Shown piece after piece: positions 10,416 through 45,185 of a stretch of 64,000 bases of DNA; within the stretch, counting starts at the first letter, position 1; the number at the start of each line of letters is the position of its first letter. The translations under genes and the position numbers were made by a program. Where the stretch lies: NCBI GenBank assembly GCA_002803225.1, contig NXFV01000681.1:124001-188000 (forward strand), in the 5' to 3' direction. A model generated the notes under the pieces. The model was not told the DNA's origin and did not search any database. It worked only from the letters and a program-made list of their open reading frames with translations. Source of the DNA: Gamarada debralockiae (Eukaryota; Ascomycota; Leotiomycetes; Helotiales; Hyphodiscaceae).

Positions 10416-11498
10416 TCAGTCTAAACCTTCTGCCACAGGTGCTGATCCTCCAACACGTTTTGGCTGTGGGTTCGCGGGAGCTCCTCCACCTCCAAACATG
10501 CTTCCCATCATATCAAACAGAGGATTGCCCTGTCTTGGCCTCTGAATCCCAAAATACATTTCGCCCACTGAAGTCAACGCCTCGTCCCACATGCCCACTT
10601 CCCGAATATGAGTCGCATATTTGGTCTTCAGCTGTCTGAACAGATCTGCGCTTCCCTTCTGCACAGTCAGCAGTAACAATCCCAAGAAATTCAGCAATGG
10701 CAGACTGGGATATATTCTCATATCCGAGCTATTGCTGCTGACATCCTGCACAGCCAGATTCTTATTCGCTTCCGTCAACCTGCTTGTAAAGAGCCGTAGG
10801 GATTTTGTAGCATCGCGGACATTGCCGGTGAGGAGATATGGGAACACAGCACGAGCAGCATAGAGCGCAGCCGTGTGCGAATCGTCCTGCATGTACCACT
10901 CATACTCCAACCTCACAAACACCTCCGGTGAATCCTTCGTTCCAAGCGCAAGGTGTCGTTCCGCATCATAAGCATCGTGTTCCTCCGCATACAGGGAGCC
11001 AGCAACATGGTGCAATTCGGGTTCGCCCGCCGGGTACTCGCCGCACTTCGCAGACCATCTGCGTTTGTTAGCTTCAAACCCCAATACCCAATCTCCAGTT
11101 CCGGTGAATAACGTACATTATCATCTCAGTAATGAACTTCTTCCTCGTGGGTTCCTCGCTATCGAATTGTCGCAACAATGTGAGAAGCTTGCCCTTGTTG
11201 CCAGAATCCGGCTTCAGCTCCGCCTGTTTGTACACCTCGATCAAGAAGAGTCCTAGATCGCCACCGCTACCTCCTTGACCCGCTTTCAGGAGAGAAGAAG
11301 CGACATTGAAGAGGATATCGATTGCTGCAGACCAGTTCTCTTGCTTGATGTATCGAGCTGCGACGACGCGGGTTTGTTGCTGGGCTTCGTAGAATTGTCC
11401 TTCTTCAGTCCTGGTGCGGGTTAGAAAGTATTCGGCATGGGAGGGGAAATCTACTTTTCCTGGAGGCGCGCGATGATCTTTTCGATTTTCGCACTCAT
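10416..11498 (-). CDS. get4: Get4, GET pathway (tail-anchored protein insertion) subunit
   Basis: Get4 pairs with Get5 and hands tail-anchored proteins from Sgt2 to Get3 in the cytosol. The family signatures are the N-terminal MSAKIEKIIARLQEK helix, the TEEGQFYEAQQQ and AARYIKQENW repeats, GEYPAGEPELHHVAG, and PSLPLLNFLGLLLLTVQKG followed by YFGI. The C-terminus is Gly/Met-rich. Two introns are seen, one right after LQEK (with a CTAAC branch site) and one near 11110-11060. The ATG at 11498 matches the family start; upstream in-frame ATGs would add an unrelated leader. It sits 240 bp from the tRNA-Gly gene, in the opposite direction. Confidence 0.88.
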
Positions 11499-11738: not shown

Positions 11739-11871
11739 GCACTCTTGGTTTAGTGTAAGCGCACTCGTTAGACTTGTGCTCCAGGCATGTCTAACAAAGC
11801 TACAGGGTAAAATCAGCGCTTCCCATGCTTCAAGCTTGCGCTGGCCCCGGGTTCGATTCCCGGAGGGTGCA
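11739..11871 (+). tRNA. tRNA-Gly(CCC) with two insertions
   Basis: The acceptor stem pairs GCACTCT (11739-11745) with AGGGTGC (11864-11870), all seven positions pairing with one G-U; discriminator A is at 11871. The T arm is perfect: CCGGG 11847-11851, loop TTCGATT, CCCGG 11859-11863. The anticodon stem is AGCGC 11815-11819 with GCGCT 11838-11842, and anticodon CCC is at 11822-11824. A canonical 11-nt intron (11826-11836) follows A37. A second insertion of 51 nt (11755-11805) lies in the D-loop just before the invariant GG. Without both, the RNA is 71 nt, the normal tRNA-Gly length, with D arm GGTTTAGTGGTAAAAT. The B box (11850-11860) is intact and the A box nearly so. Confidence 0.88.
11755..11805 (+). 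other. Spliceosomal-type intron-like insertion in the tRNA D-loop
   Basis: This 51-nt insertion begins GTAAGC, has TCTAAC at 11790-11795 as a fungal-type branch site, and ends CTACAG, with the branch A 11 nt from the 3' end. That matches mRNA introns of neighbouring genes. It also holds a perfect 7-bp inverted repeat (GTTAGAC 11767-11773, GTCTAAC 11789-11795, 15-nt loop) that overlaps the branch site. Removal leaves the D-loop AGTGG. The junction could slide by one base, but only this register gives GT-AG. Confidence 0.7.
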
Positions 11872-11876
11872 TTAAC

Positions 11877-11881
11877 TTTTT
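11877..11881 (+). terminator. Pol III terminator (T5)
   Basis: A run of five T residues starts six bases after the tRNA discriminator base, as expected for RNA polymerase III termination. It supports a transcribed tRNA gene rather than a fragment. Confidence 0.7.
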
Positions 11882-12101: not shown

Positions 12102-12300
12102 AGTGAATCCCGAGAATATCAGTCGTCCAAATTGCATGAACGATTCAAACTCCAAGTCCGTGATCCTGGAAAGCTAGTGAATCTCGAGAAGACCAATCGT
12201 TCAAATGTGTGAACGATTAAAACTCCAATACCGCGTCTGGGTAAATCTTAATAAATTTGACAAAATGAGTCGTTCAAATACTTTGAACGATTCGGAGTTC
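12102..12300. repeat. Three degenerate ~74-bp tandem units, each with a hairpin
   Basis: Each unit has a TCGTTCAAA...GAACGATT inverted repeat, at 12123, 12198 and 12270. The first two are followed by AAACTCC. The first two hairpins are preceded by AGTGAATCcCGAGAA (12102, 12176). Unit spacing is 72-75 bp. No gene covers it. The flanks from 11882 to 12701 show nothing else recognisable. Confidence 0.65.
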
Positions 12301-37066: not shown

Positions 37067-39230
37067 ATGCGATACACTCGATCTCTAAGATCTATAGGGA
37101 AAGTCTTCACCGGCAGTCGACCTTCAATCCTCAATCAATTCCGGCCTCGAACCCTCCAAATCTGCATTCGCTATAACTCAAGTGCCGGGGGAAGCACACG
37201 CACAGGCACGTCGCACGAAGGATCTCCCCGCACGAAGGCCACTGCTGATATACTCGCAGATCAAGACATGGAGACGGTAGACACGACTGAACGCCTTACC
37301 CGGCTCAGGGAACTCATGAAGGAGCACAAGGTCGACATCTACAGTATGTAAGTGATCGACATCCCACTATTCAACAACTTCTAACACATGATCTAGTTGT
37401 TCCTTCTGAAGACAGCCACTCCTCCGAATACATCGCACCATGTGACGCAAGAAGAGAGTTTATATCTGGATTTTCTGGTTCTGCAGGATGTGCAGTTATC
37501 ACACACGAAAAGGCAGCCCTGGCCACGGACGGCCGATACTTCAATCAAGCTGCGAAACAGCTGGATAGCAACTGGCTTTTGCTGAAGCAAGGTCTGCAGG
37601 ATGTACCAACATGGCAAGAATGGTCCGCGGAGCAGTCAGAGGGAGGGAAGATTGTTGGTGTGGACCCGACAGTCATCTCTGCGCCTGATGCACGGAAATT
37701 GGCCGAGAAGATCAAGAAGCGAGGGGGACACGAATTGGCGGCAGTCGAGGAGAACCTCGTGGACATAATTTGGGGAGAAAGCCGCCCGCCTAAGCCCAGT
37801 GAACCGGTGAAGGTGCTTGCCAAGCAATTTTCTGGAAAGGATGTGAAGACTAAACTCGAAGAACTTAGGAAAGAGTTGGAGAAGAAGAAGAGTTCTGGCT
37901 TCATTGTGTCGATGCTGGATGAGATTGCATGGCTATTCAACATGCGTGGAAACGATATTCCTTACAACCCGGTTTTCTTCTCCTACGCCACTATCACACC
38001 TACTACCGCCACCCTTTATGTTGATTCAACCAAGCTGGACCCGGATTGTGAAGCCCATCTCTCAGAGAATGGAGTTTCCGTTCGGCCATACGAGAAGATC
38101 TTCGCAGACACCGAAGTATTGGGCCAATCACTGGAAACTGCCAACAGCGATGGGCCTGCGGAAGCCAAGATCAAGAAGTTCCTAGTATCGACCAAGACCT
38201 CATGGGCATTGAAGAGATCCTTAGGAGGAGAGGCCAAAGTTGAGGAGATCCGAAGTCCCATTGGTGATGCCAAAGCTGTTAAAAACGAGACTGAACTAGA
38301 AGGGATGAGAGCTTGTCATATCAGAGATGGAGCCGCTCTGATCGAGTACTTCTCTTGGCTGGAGCATCAGCTTACAGTGGAGAAGGCGGAGCTCGACGAA
38401 GTTACAGCCGCTGACAAGCTTGAAGAGATGCGATCGAAACGCAAACATTTTGTTGGACTGTCATTCGATACTATTTCCTCAACTGGGGCGAACGCTGCTG
38501 TAATTCATTACAAGCCCGAGCGCGGGAACTGCTCAATCATCGATCCAAAGGCAGTGTATCTGTGTGACTCCGGAGCCCAGTACTTTGACGGTACTACTGA
38601 CACAACTCGCACCCTGCATTTTGGAGAGCCCACGGAAATGGAGAGGAAAGCCTACACTCTCGTGCTGAAAGGAAACATTGCTTTGGACATTGCTATTTTC
38701 CCCAAGGGGACCAGCGGCTTTGCTCTCGATACCTTGGCGAGACAATTCTTATGGGTAAGCTAAACTCATCATTCACCCTCCCTTCATCACTAACATTTAA
38801 ACAGGAAGAAGGACTAGACTACCGCCACGGCACAGGCCACGGCGTAGGATCCTACCTAAACGTGCACGAAGGCCCCATCGGCATCGGCACCCGCATCCAA
38901 TATTCTGAAGTGCCTTTGGCCCCAGGAAATGTGATCTCCGACGAGCCTGGCTACTACGAAGATGGATCATTCGGCATCCGCATTGAGAACATCGTCATGG
39001 TGAAAGAGGTAGAAACGAAGCACAAGTTTGGGGACAAGCCCTATCTTGGTTTCGAGCATGTTACGATGGTGCCTTATTGCCAGAAATTGATTGATGAGAA
39101 TCTGTTGACGAGGAGGGAGAAACATTGGTTGAATGAATATCATGCTGATATTTATGCTAAGACGAAGGACTATTTTGAGGCGGGAAGTGTGGCGATGAAG
39201 TGGTTGGAGAGGGAGACTACTCCTATCTAA
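37067..39230 (+). CDS. ampp: Xaa-Pro aminopeptidase P (metallopeptidase M24B)
   Basis: Releases N-terminal residues from Xaa-Pro peptides, using two metal ions. Exons 37067-37343, 37397-38754 and 38805-39230 join in phase. Creatinase-like N domains are followed by the pita-bread catalytic domain with metal ligands in [18 protein letters not shown], the [17 protein letters not shown] block, [11 protein letters not shown] and FGIRIENI. The long basic, Ser/Arg-rich leader ([16 protein letters not shown]...) looks like a mitochondrial presequence. Start and 5' region are divergent from the karyopherin gene (520 bp apart). Confidence 0.94.
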
Positions 39231-42176: not shown

Positions 42177-45100
42177 ATGCTATTTGCCTGCAATCGCAAA
42201 GTCGTGGCAGCAGCTGCGCTTCTGCTGTTCTGCATCGTCGATGCGAGTACGATAACTACGGCTCCGAAAGCTACCTCTACTTCCAATGCGGTTCCGGCGA
42301 CGTGCGAGTTTAGGACGATCAATTACATTACGGATTCTCTGCCGCAGCAATGCTTGAAGTCGTCTTGGAGCAATTCGAATGCTACGGCTTCTACGATAGC
42401 AGGGACGCAGGGGAATGCTACGGTGACGGAGGATGGACAATCTGAGGGGACGATAGTCCCTGGATCTGAGACATCGAGCCAGAATGATACGCAGAGTGCC
42501 GGAGGAAATGGTACCTTTCAAGAAAGTTCCGTCTGGAGTGAGGCAGCCTCGAGTACCTCCGATCTCCCTCCCACCGCGACAGAGACCACCGAAGAATCTG
42601 CCACCGATATTGAGAGCGGCGAGCTCAACGAAGCTTCGTTCCTATCCTTCGAAGATTGGAAGAAACAGACATTGGAGAAGGCAGGGCAAGCAAATGCAAA
42701 CATCGGAAACAAGAAGTCTGGAGGGAAGAGGGACTCAGAGAGCATTCAGAACAACCTAGATTCCCTTGGCGATGAAGGGGAGATTGAGCTTGATTTTGGT
42801 GCCTTTCGGAGTGGAGGCAGTGAAGGAGAGCAAGCTTCAGAAAGCAAGGAACCGGATGCCCAAGCCTCCGAGGATCTGGAAGGAACAGGGAGAAAGCAAT
42901 ACAGGAGCAAGGATGCGGGCATAACGTGCAAGGAACGCTTCTCATATGCTTCTTTCGATGCTGGGGCCACCATTCTCAAGACACACCCTGGAGCGAAGAA
43001 TTCGAAGGCTGTGTTGATTGAGAACAAGGACTCGTACATGCTTTCCGAATGTGCAGCTGAAAACAAGTTCTTGATCGTGGAGCTGTCGGAGGATATCTGG
43101 ATCGACACGGTAGTCCTTGCAAACTACGAATTTTTCTCGAGCATGATCAGAACCTTCCGTGTTAGTGTTAGCGACCGCTATCCCGTTAAGATGGAGAAGT
43201 GGAAAGACCTTGGAGTCTATGAAGCCCGAAACTCGAGAGATATTCAAGCTTTTCTCATTGAGAACCCGCAGATTTGGGCAAGATACCTGAGAATCGAATT
43301 CTTGAGCCATTATGGGAATGAGTATTATTGTCCTCTTTCCCTGCTTCGAGTGCACGGCACTCGGATGCTTGAGAGTTGGAAAGAGACCGAAGCAAGCGGT
43401 GACGACGATGATGCCGAGAGTGATGGCCAAGGAGAAGAACAATTTGTACCTGATGCTGTGGCCGAGGTCGTGCAGGAAGAGGAACGATTGAACGCCGAGC
43501 TTAAGGGAGCACAAGCTGCCATTGACGATATTGTGAAGACTGCCGCCTCGATCTCGGATCACGTAGAACCAGCTCTTACCTCGAGCCATCTCATAGATGT
43601 CAATCGTTCCCTTGAGGATGTCACCACGGAGCAAATGACTACGCCTTGGGTCAAACCCGAGACTGAAATTTTCTCCCCCGATATCCAGGAATTGGAGATC
43701 TGTCTTCCCTCAGATGCACCAGGACAACAACCTGTTGCAACTCTTGACACGGAGTCGGAAAGTAGCTCCACAGTTGAGTTGGATCCGGATAAGGTCACAG
43801 CTACAGGCCCTCCATCTGCGGGAAGTGTGGTCTCTCCACCACCCACTCCAGCTGCCACTTCGCAGTCCGATGATTCTAGCGCAGAGAGTTCTTCGCCTGA
43901 AGCATCCTCAGTTACCGTAGCATCCAACTTGACGAGTATCACTTCCTCTATTAAAGACTCCATATCCTCCGCTATGGCTTCGGCGGCCAACAGAACCTCC
44001 AGTGCTGCATCGGTAGCCTCTGCCATCACCAAGTCCCAAAACTCCACAATCTCCCAAAAGAATAAAACCTCCTCCACTCAATCAGCCACCTCGTCCCTCC
44101 CCACAATCCAAGAATCCTTCTTCAAAGCCGTCTCCCGCCGCCTCCAACTCCTGGAAACAAACTCCACCCTCTCCCTAAAATACATCGAAGAGCAATCCAA
44201 AATCCTGCGCGAGGCATTCACCAAAGTCGAGAAAAAGCAACTCCAAAAAACTACCACCTTCCTCGACACACTCAACTCCACAGTTCTCGACGAACTCCGC
44301 GGCTTCAGACAACAATACGACGAAATCTGGCAATCGACCATCATCTCCCTCGAAAGCCAAAGGGAAGAATCCCGTCGTGAGATCCTGGCTATCAGTACGC
44401 GGCTCACTATCCTAGCAGACGAGGTCGTTTTCCAGAAACGCATGTCGATCGTGCAATCCGTTCTCCTCCTCCTCTGTCTAGGCCTTGTGATCTTCTCGAG
44501 GGTATCAGTGGGAGGCCATCTCGATTTCCCCGCTATGCAAGCTCGAGCGCGAAATTTTGGCTTCCCTGTTTCGCTATTGGAAAGTCCGCCTGGGAGTCCT
44601 GAGTACCGCAGAACGGGTTCCATGAGGGAGGAGGGCCAGTGGCTTAGGCCTGGAGAACGCAGGCGGGGCGGATCTCCGATCTCGAGATCCAGGAGTAGAG
44701 AGGATGATGATTCGCCGCCTTCGCCAGTATCGTTTTACTCCCGCTCCGAGAACGCTCTTACACCTCCGTCGGGAGCAGATGACATGGCTGGATCGACGGG
44801 GAATCTCATGGACGAGCACTTAGAAGTTCCTGCCCAACACGATTCCCACGAATTCCCACAATCGAGCTCCTCTCCAGCTCACGATCTCTCCGAGGAGCAG
44901 TCCTTCTACTCCTCGCCTACAGTCCGCACACCGAAGAAGCGAAAGGCTTTTCTTCGCCAGCAATCCAGCCCGCCTCCGGATGACAGCTCTCCTCAAAATC
45001 CCGACTCCTCTCCTGATCAGAACCACACATGCGACCCCAACGAGCTCCCCGTCGAGTCAGCACCCATAGCTGACCGCTCACCGCCCTTACCATCTCCACC

Positions 45101-45185
45101 ACCAGAGATGGAGAGGGAGAAGGAAAGGCCCCACTTCAGCATTGCAAGGAAGCCTCTGCCAGCTTTGCCTACAGATGGGAATTGA
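42177..45185 (+). CDS. slp1: SUN-domain Slp1-like ER membrane protein
   Basis: A single-exon 1002-residue protein. Signal peptide MLFACNRKVVAAAALLLFCIV cut short is followed by a Ser/Thr-rich lumenal stretch with many N-glycosylation sequons. The SUN-like domain (about residues 250-410) has FSYASFDAGATILKTHPG, KDSYMLSECAAENKFLIVEL, WIDTVVLANYEFFSSMIRTF and LRIEFLSHYGNEYYCPLSLL. A long Ser-rich region and coiled-coil (about 660-760) lead to one membrane helix (SVLLLLCLGLVIFSRV). The C-terminal tail is cytosolic, Pro/Ser/Glu-rich. In yeast, Slp1 works with Emp65 to protect soluble ER proteins. Domain order fits this family. Confidence 0.88.
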   Translation: MLFACNRKVVAAAALLLFCIVDASTITTAPKATSTSNAVPATCEFRTINYITDSLPQQCLKSSWSNSNATASTIAGTQGNATVTEDGQSEGTIVPGSETSSQNDTQSAGGNGTFQESSVWSEAASSTSDLPPTATETTEESATDIESGELNEASFLSFEDWKKQTLEKAGQANANIGNKKSGGKRDSESIQNNLDSLGDEGEIELDFGAFRSGGSEGEQASESKEPDAQASEDLEGTGRKQYRSKDAGITCKERFSYASFDAGATILKTHPGAKNSKAVLIENKDSYMLSECAAENKFLIVELSEDIWIDTVVLANYEFFSSMIRTFRVSVSDRYPVKMEKWKDLGVYEARNSRDIQAFLIENPQIWARYLRIEFLSHYGNEYYCPLSLLRVHGTRMLESWKETEASGDDDDAESDGQGEEQFVPDAVAEVVQEEERLNAELKGAQAAIDDIVKTAASISDHVEPALTSSHLIDVNRSLEDVTTEQMTTPWVKPETEIFSPDIQELEICLPSDAPGQQPVATLDTESESSSTVELDPDKVTATGPPSAGSVVSPPPTPAATSQSDDSSAESSSPEASSVTVASNLTSITSSIKDSISSAMASAANRTSSAASVASAITKSQNSTISQKNKTSSTQSATSSLPTIQESFFKAVSRRLQLLETNSTLSLKYIEEQSKILREAFTKVEKKQLQKTTTFLDTLNSTVLDELRGFRQQYDEIWQSTIISLESQREESRREILAISTRLTILADEVVFQKRMSIVQSVLLLLCLGLVIFSRVSVGGHLDFPAMQARARNFGFPVSLLESPPGSPEYRRTGSMREEGQWLRPGERRRGGSPISRSRSREDDDSPPSPVSFYSRSENALTPPSGADDMAGSTGNLMDEHLEVPAQHDSHEFPQSSSSPAHDLSEEQSFYSSPTVRTPKKRKAFLRQQSSPPPDDSSPQNPDSSPDQNHTCDPNELPVESAPIADRSPPLPSPPPEMEREKERPHFSIARKPLPALPTDGN

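Follow-up and report, generated by a model that had tools for sequence, protein, structure and literature searches.

A tRNA-Gly(CCC) gene of the fungus Gamarada debralockiae is one of 12 tRNA genes in its genome that were found to be split by one to five extra inserts, and its transcript is, judging from sequence, very likely processed by two machineries, the spliceosome and the tRNA-splicing endonuclease. The inserts are best read as U2-type spliceosomal introns. The gene lies in a 64,000-nt stretch of contig NXFV01000681.1 (GCA_002803225.1, positions 124,001 to 188,000, forward strand), hereafter the window, and coordinates given without a contig label refer to this stretch. An earlier note on the window had suggested that the transcript may be spliced by both machineries. 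This is supported here at the level of sequence, with inserts in 12 of the 27 clear tRNA genes read and no second CCC gene found, and the splicing itself is predicted.

The gene was located at 11739-11871, as noted earlier, and its sequence reads as claimed there; all of its parts lie on the forward strand. Exon 1 (11739-11754) comprises the 5' acceptor strand, the D stem and the start of the D loop, including the A-box region. After nucleotide 16, the D loop is interrupted by a 51-nt spliceosomal-type intron (11755-11805) with the GTAAGC...CTAAC...CTACAG pattern already described, which was delimited using its motifs, ARAGORN and a cloverleaf test. The CTAAC motif (11791-11795) is its putative branch site, with a predicted branch A at 11794. 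Exon 2 (11806-11826, ARAGORN) holds the remaining D arm, the 5' anticodon strand and the anticodon CCC, and is followed by the canonical 11-nt anticodon-loop intron at position 37/38, which ARAGORN placed at 11827-11837, equivalent to the 11826-11836 given before. Exon 3 (11838-11871) carries the 3' anticodon strand, variable loop, T arm, 3' acceptor strand and discriminator A. Removal of the D-loop insert and the 11-nt intron left the 71-nt tRNA-Gly(CCC) that had been claimed, called as such by ARAGORN. The B box and T5 run of the earlier description were both present, the former (GGTTCGATTCC) by B-box pattern search at 11850-11860 (G000:C304:135850-135860) and the latter, a presumed Pol III terminator, at 11877-11881.

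In the unspliced gene ARAGORN called nothing, or a spurious Thr(CGT) when introns were allowed. The 51-nt insert lies away from the canonical tRNA intron position (37/38), which the separate 11-nt intron occupies. The gene is intergenic, the nearest ORFs of at least 70 aa ending at 11084 and starting at 12205. The fit of the insert exceeds chance: of 350 deletions of 49-53 nt scored in this gene, 15 restored a cloverleaf as good as the annotated deletion does, and among these 15 a single one was GT-AG with a branch motif. The intron also contains a 7-bp inverted repeat, GTTAGAC (11767-11773) and GTCTAAC (11789-11795). A plain fold of the precursor is predicted to pair this repeat and thus to enclose the branch motif in a hairpin, which counts against the spliceosome reading.

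To place this gene among the tRNA genes of the same genome (54.3-Mb assembly), a survey keyed on tRNA B boxes was combined with an Rfam tRNA search. For the B-box pattern GGTTCGANTCC, all 87 sites were fetched and read; for GGTTCGANCCC, 31 of 46 sites were read (30 loci and one already in the set); and for GGTTCAANTCC, 100 of 110 sites were covered, 98 as 63-nt windows and two already in the set, seven of them with flanks. Sites were dropped when the T stem paired at fewer than four positions in some batches, or fewer than five in one batch. In the Rfam search 63 of 1952 candidates were scored and 17 places were found, six of which formed one mitochondrial-looking cluster on C63 (L006, L007, L009, L010, L016 and L017) and were left out of the count. 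Clear nuclear tRNA genes numbered 27, of which 12 carried extra inserts; as the survey was partial and B-box keyed, this proportion describes the genes read and not the genome total, and any gene whose B box is itself interrupted would have escaped it.

The 12 split genes hold 26 inserts in all. One insert each was found in the Gly-CCC gene of the window, Arg-TCG L123 and the two Ser-AGA genes (L237, L238), two each in Thr-CGT L022, Gln-CTG L054, Arg-TCG L066, Glu-TTC L087, Leu-CAA L078 and Ala-CGC L241, and five in each of the two Ala-AGC genes (L099, L034). The other 15 genes had the canonical intron only, or no insert: Met L002, Cys L003, Val L004, Lys L005, Gln-TTG L008, His L011, Gly-GCC L012, Gly-TCC L013, Asp L014 and L098, Glu-CTC L015, L065 and L068, Ser-CGA L239, and L079, read as Leu-CAA by eye and as Met-CAT by ARAGORN.

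Loci that looked degenerate or repeated, or that defied resolution, were not counted (L018/L025 on C68, L024, L035, L037, L042, L045, L051, L053, L084, L118, L240, L242 and L243), although ARAGORN calls something in some of them, for example Ala-GGC in L042 and Ser in L051. Four of these loci (L018, L051, L240 and L243) are tRNA-like, with good T arms and long or odd anticodon regions, and could be degenerate genes, repeats or further split genes. L242 (G000:C916:47177-47505) is a partial second Ala-CGC about 3 kb from the split L241; its 5' half was not found, and it is truncated or a pseudogene. The assembly may mix two fungi. A SUN-domain protein encoded in the window (42177-45185) showed 75% identity to Hyphodiscus hymeniophilus, with another match at 84%; the next matches after H. 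hymeniophilus were to Cadophora, Lachnellula and other leotiomycetes, which places the window in a leotiomycete ascomycete.

The inserts are alike in build and varied in place. They are 47-63 nt long. Each of the 26 starts with GT and carries CTAAC, CTAAT, CTGAC or CTGAT (CTRAY) with 9-14 nt left to its 3' end, which is AG in 24 and TG in two. The commonest starts were GTAAGA, GTTAGT, GTTCGT, GTACGT and GTAAGT. GT, branch motif and AG occurred together in only 16 of 200,000 shuffled inserts. The most 5' site follows nucleotide 6, in the acceptor stem (L123), and the most 3' one follows nucleotide 49, in the T stem (Ala-AGC); the D arm, anticodon stem and variable region are interrupted as well. 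The shortest exon is 5 nt, and several split genes have exons of 5-8 nt. Each of the 12 also has one canonical anticodon intron (9-41 nt). The two TG-ending inserts are the fifth, T-stem inserts of the Ala-AGC genes L099 and L034, with a GTAAGA start and a CTTG end; they would be GT-TG introns if spliced where the cloverleaf demands.

For comparison, tblastn with a Sclerotinia protein was used to delimit two introns in an Xaa-Pro aminopeptidase-like gene on the forward strand of the window: GTAAGT...CTAAC...TAG, 49 nt (37348-37396), and GTAAGC...CTAAC...CAG, 50 nt (38755-38804). The tRNA inserts match these protein-gene introns in length and motifs, the comparison being with these two window introns.

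Insert boundaries were at first set by visual inspection, with a GT-AG pattern expected, and were checked by script afterwards. All 12 spliced sequences were called by ARAGORN as tRNAs with the expected anticodon, and their stems were intact; neither broken stems nor lost invariant bases, the marks of a tRNA pseudogene, were found in any of them. None of the 12 unspliced versions was called correctly. In a structure-only test, each deletion of approximately the right length was scored by the cloverleaf alone, with the other inserts removed as annotated. Per insert, 1-59 of 350-405 deletions equalled the annotated one. At 24 of 26 sites these equally good deletions included a GT-AG one with a branch motif, where 1.8 sites with a GT-AG deletion were expected from the frequency of GT-AG deletions (56/9405); P is about 2e-30 under independence of the sites, a condition that the Ala-AGC pair breaks. 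Both sites without such a solution are those of the TG-ending inserts. In five cases (both Thr inserts and the second insert of each Ala gene), the annotated deletion is beaten by another by one point.

Similar inserts were found in a U6 gene, L138 (G000:C1066:53003-53125, minus strand), which has two GT-AG inserts of 55 and 52 nt (GTAAGT...CTAAC...CAG and GTGAGT...CTAAT...TAG). It scored only 44.0 bits on the Rfam U6 model, just at the cut-off, because the two inserts interrupt it; a second U6 gene, L137 (C507), is unbroken and scored 78 bits. With the U6 inserts included, GT was found in 28/28, the branch motif in 28/28 and AG in 26/28 inserts. Of 16 5S rRNA matches, 14 were over the cut-off, and each of these 14 covered 120 of 120 positions and was free of large inserts.

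Transcription signals were assessed around the same genes. A run of at least four T was present within about 30 nt 3' of 11 of the 12 split tRNA genes, L066 being the one without. B boxes were present in all 12, but the B box was the search key. Inside the inserts, four T4 runs were counted against 3.5 in shuffles, and no T5 run against 0.6; the frequency is as in shuffles, so T-run avoidance is neutral on Pol III. The motif AAATA[AT]G, picked after viewing these sequences, was found 15-100 nt upstream of nine of the 11 split tRNA genes with enough sequence and of five of 15 unsplit genes (Fisher P 0.02), and in 1.3% of random windows; it was absent upstream of the Gly-CCC gene of the window and of the split U6. 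The form AAATAAG was seen 25-75 nt upstream of L022, L054, L087, L123, L034, L241, L237, L238, L002, L011, L065 and L079. It is possibly an upstream Pol III promoter element, and the AAATA[AT]G element could compensate for A boxes broken by inserts.

The earlier note had proposed a search for the same insertion with conserved motifs and a variable interior; this comparison was made between paralogs. The Ala-AGC genes L099 and L034 share their exons and, within the inserts, the GT, the branch motif and the 3' end, and differ in the insert interiors: the spliced sequences are identical at 72/72 positions, the five inserts are at matching sites, and aligned inserts are 59-74% identical (45-51% on average in shuffles), with 92% in the canonical intron. 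The Ser-AGA genes L237 and L238 have an identical body with the insert after nucleotides 27 and 29, respectively, and could represent separate gains or a slid intron. Introner-like spread, that is, mobile intron copies, was examined by scoring all pairs of the 28 inserts against a null that preserves the motifs, for which the best score had its 95% point at 29. This was exceeded by one insert pair between the Ala-AGC paralogs (32) and by L034 insert 1 against Ser-AGA L237 (31, global P 0.035). The remaining pairs did not exceed it, and two pairs are too few to claim copies of a mobile intron.

Dispensability queries covered Gly-CCC, Ala-AGC, Glu-TTC and Ser-AGA. Other Gly-CCC genes, whose count the earlier note had called for, were not found in the 54.3-Mb assembly, where both the 133-nt and the spliced 71-nt queries matched only the window gene. 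Nor is that gene a lone decaying copy, the case named earlier as damaging to the idea, as similar inserts are carried by the other split genes of the survey. No unsplit Ala-AGC was found with an anticodon-arm pattern, which matched at nine places, namely the two split genes and seven that were non-tRNA on inspection. For Ser-AGA, the whole-tRNA query matched the 44-nt exon in each of the two split genes and no unsplit copy or other place. Nor did whole-tRNA queries reveal an unsplit Ala-AGC or Glu-TTC; they also missed the split genes they stood for, in which the exons reach no more than 23 and 24 nt; these negatives are therefore weak, and rest on the assumption that an unsplit copy, with longer unbroken stretches, would be seen. 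Among the genes read, Gly-CCC, Ala-AGC, Ala-CGC, Glu-TTC and Ser-AGA were represented exclusively by split genes. The codons GCT, GCC, GAA, TCT, TCC and GGG are used in the two window protein genes examined. An apparent second gene for Leu-CAA, L079 as read by eye (ARAGORN, Met-CAT), is unsplit.

Three other explanations were weighed. Introns in D and T arms, several per gene, exist in some eukaryotes according to the available part of a review (PMC4090602), and the split genes have a canonical intron as well, so the inserts could be ectopic tRNA introns cut by the tRNA-splicing endonuclease via bulge-helix-bulge-like structures, with GT-AG incidental. We consider this very improbable, given GT, CTRAY and AG in nearly all inserts, the like inserts in U6 and the narrow length range, which resembles that of the window protein introns; the yeast endonuclease is, moreover, described as restricted to 37/38 in the portion of PMC4033280 at hand. 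It is also very unlikely that the split genes represent pseudogenes, or recent insertions without function, with the work done by unsplit genes. All stems are intact in the 12 spliced sequences, the Ala-AGC exons are identical despite diverged inserts, splice motifs are kept, which is unexpected in a pseudogene, and unsplit Ala-AGC, Gly-CCC and Ser-AGA were not found though their codons are used. These points are set against the usual reading of D- and T-arm insertions in eukaryotic tRNA genes as pseudogene signs (PMC4090602, in part), the presence of degenerate tRNA-like loci such as L242 and L243, and the apparent unsplit copy of Leu-CAA.

The remaining explanation accepts spliceosomal introns and places them in capped RNA polymerase II precursors, from which the tRNA would be cut out afterwards. 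Pol II transcripts are the normal substrates of the spliceosome, and several inserts fall within the A-box region, for example those after nucleotide 10 in Ala-AGC and Ala-CGC. The T4+ runs downstream of 11 of 12 split genes speak for Pol III instead, as does an upstream AAATA[AT]G element common to split and unsplit tRNA genes, and U6 and U3 of fungi are known to contain spliceosomal introns (PMC5832005, as far as the available text goes); a Pol II origin is thus unlikely.

Under the preferred reading, splicing by spliceosome and endonuclease, RNA polymerase III would make the precursor and a U2-type spliceosome would remove each insert as a lariat. The tRNA body would then fold, the Sen endonuclease would recognise it and excise the anticodon intron, and RNase P and tRNase Z would trim the ends. 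The presumed order, spliceosome first and endonuclease second, follows from the inserts cutting through the arms, so that the tRNA body cannot form before their removal. Exons of 5-8 nt would be a hard task for the spliceosome, and weigh against this reading.

A search of the open-access literature, with subscription papers and preprints outside its scope, found no published case of spliceosomal introns in tRNA genes. According to a 2017 paper, frequent interruption was known for no small structured RNAs other than U3 and U6 (PMC5832005, available part). The inserts described here resemble these fungal U6 snRNA and U3 snoRNA introns in being ordinary GT-AG introns in small structured RNAs, of which the two in U6 L138 are an example from the same genome; they differ in that the host is a tRNA, that there are up to five per gene, and that the transcript has a second, unrelated intron type. 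Lichen fungi have ectopic spliceosomal introns in rDNA, and yeast removes them from Pol I transcripts, according to the part of PMC8527467 consulted. These are likewise spliceosomal introns in a structural RNA without Pol II, with rRNA and Pol I there and tRNA and presumably Pol III here. Several introns per gene in D, T and anticodon arms are also known from tRNAs of nucleomorphs, the red alga Cyanidioschyzon and crenarchaea, the D- and T-arm introns of nucleomorphs and the alga being linked to the endonuclease (PMC4090602, a review available in part). The Guillardia nucleomorph introns are 3-24 nt long and linked to the splicing endonuclease in the same source, whereas the present inserts are 47-63 nt with GT, CTRAY and AG. 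The canonical eukaryotic intron (37/38, Sen complex) is present once in each split gene, and the remaining inserts are unlike it in position, length and motifs. The introns are thus ordinary and the hosts are not; for the specialist, it is tRNA genes as hosts that are surprising.

As ARAGORN was correct on none of the 12 unspliced genes, fungal genomes that seem short of tRNAs deserve re-reading. The split tRNAs would also offer a clean system for studying intron invasion of structured RNAs, with Ser-AGA sites two nucleotides apart and other tRNA genes without any insert. tRNA splicing is treated as independent of the spliceosome in the available part of a 2026 review (PMC13149111), a rule that would, if the reading is true, be broken by tRNA genes carrying as many as five introns of the mRNA type. 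The spliceosome would then work on very short, likely Pol III transcripts with exons down to 5 nt. In this fungus a large share of tRNAs is probably matured via the spliceosome, with two machineries acting on each such transcript and one U6 affected too, and translation as a whole would be tied to the splicing that serves mRNA.
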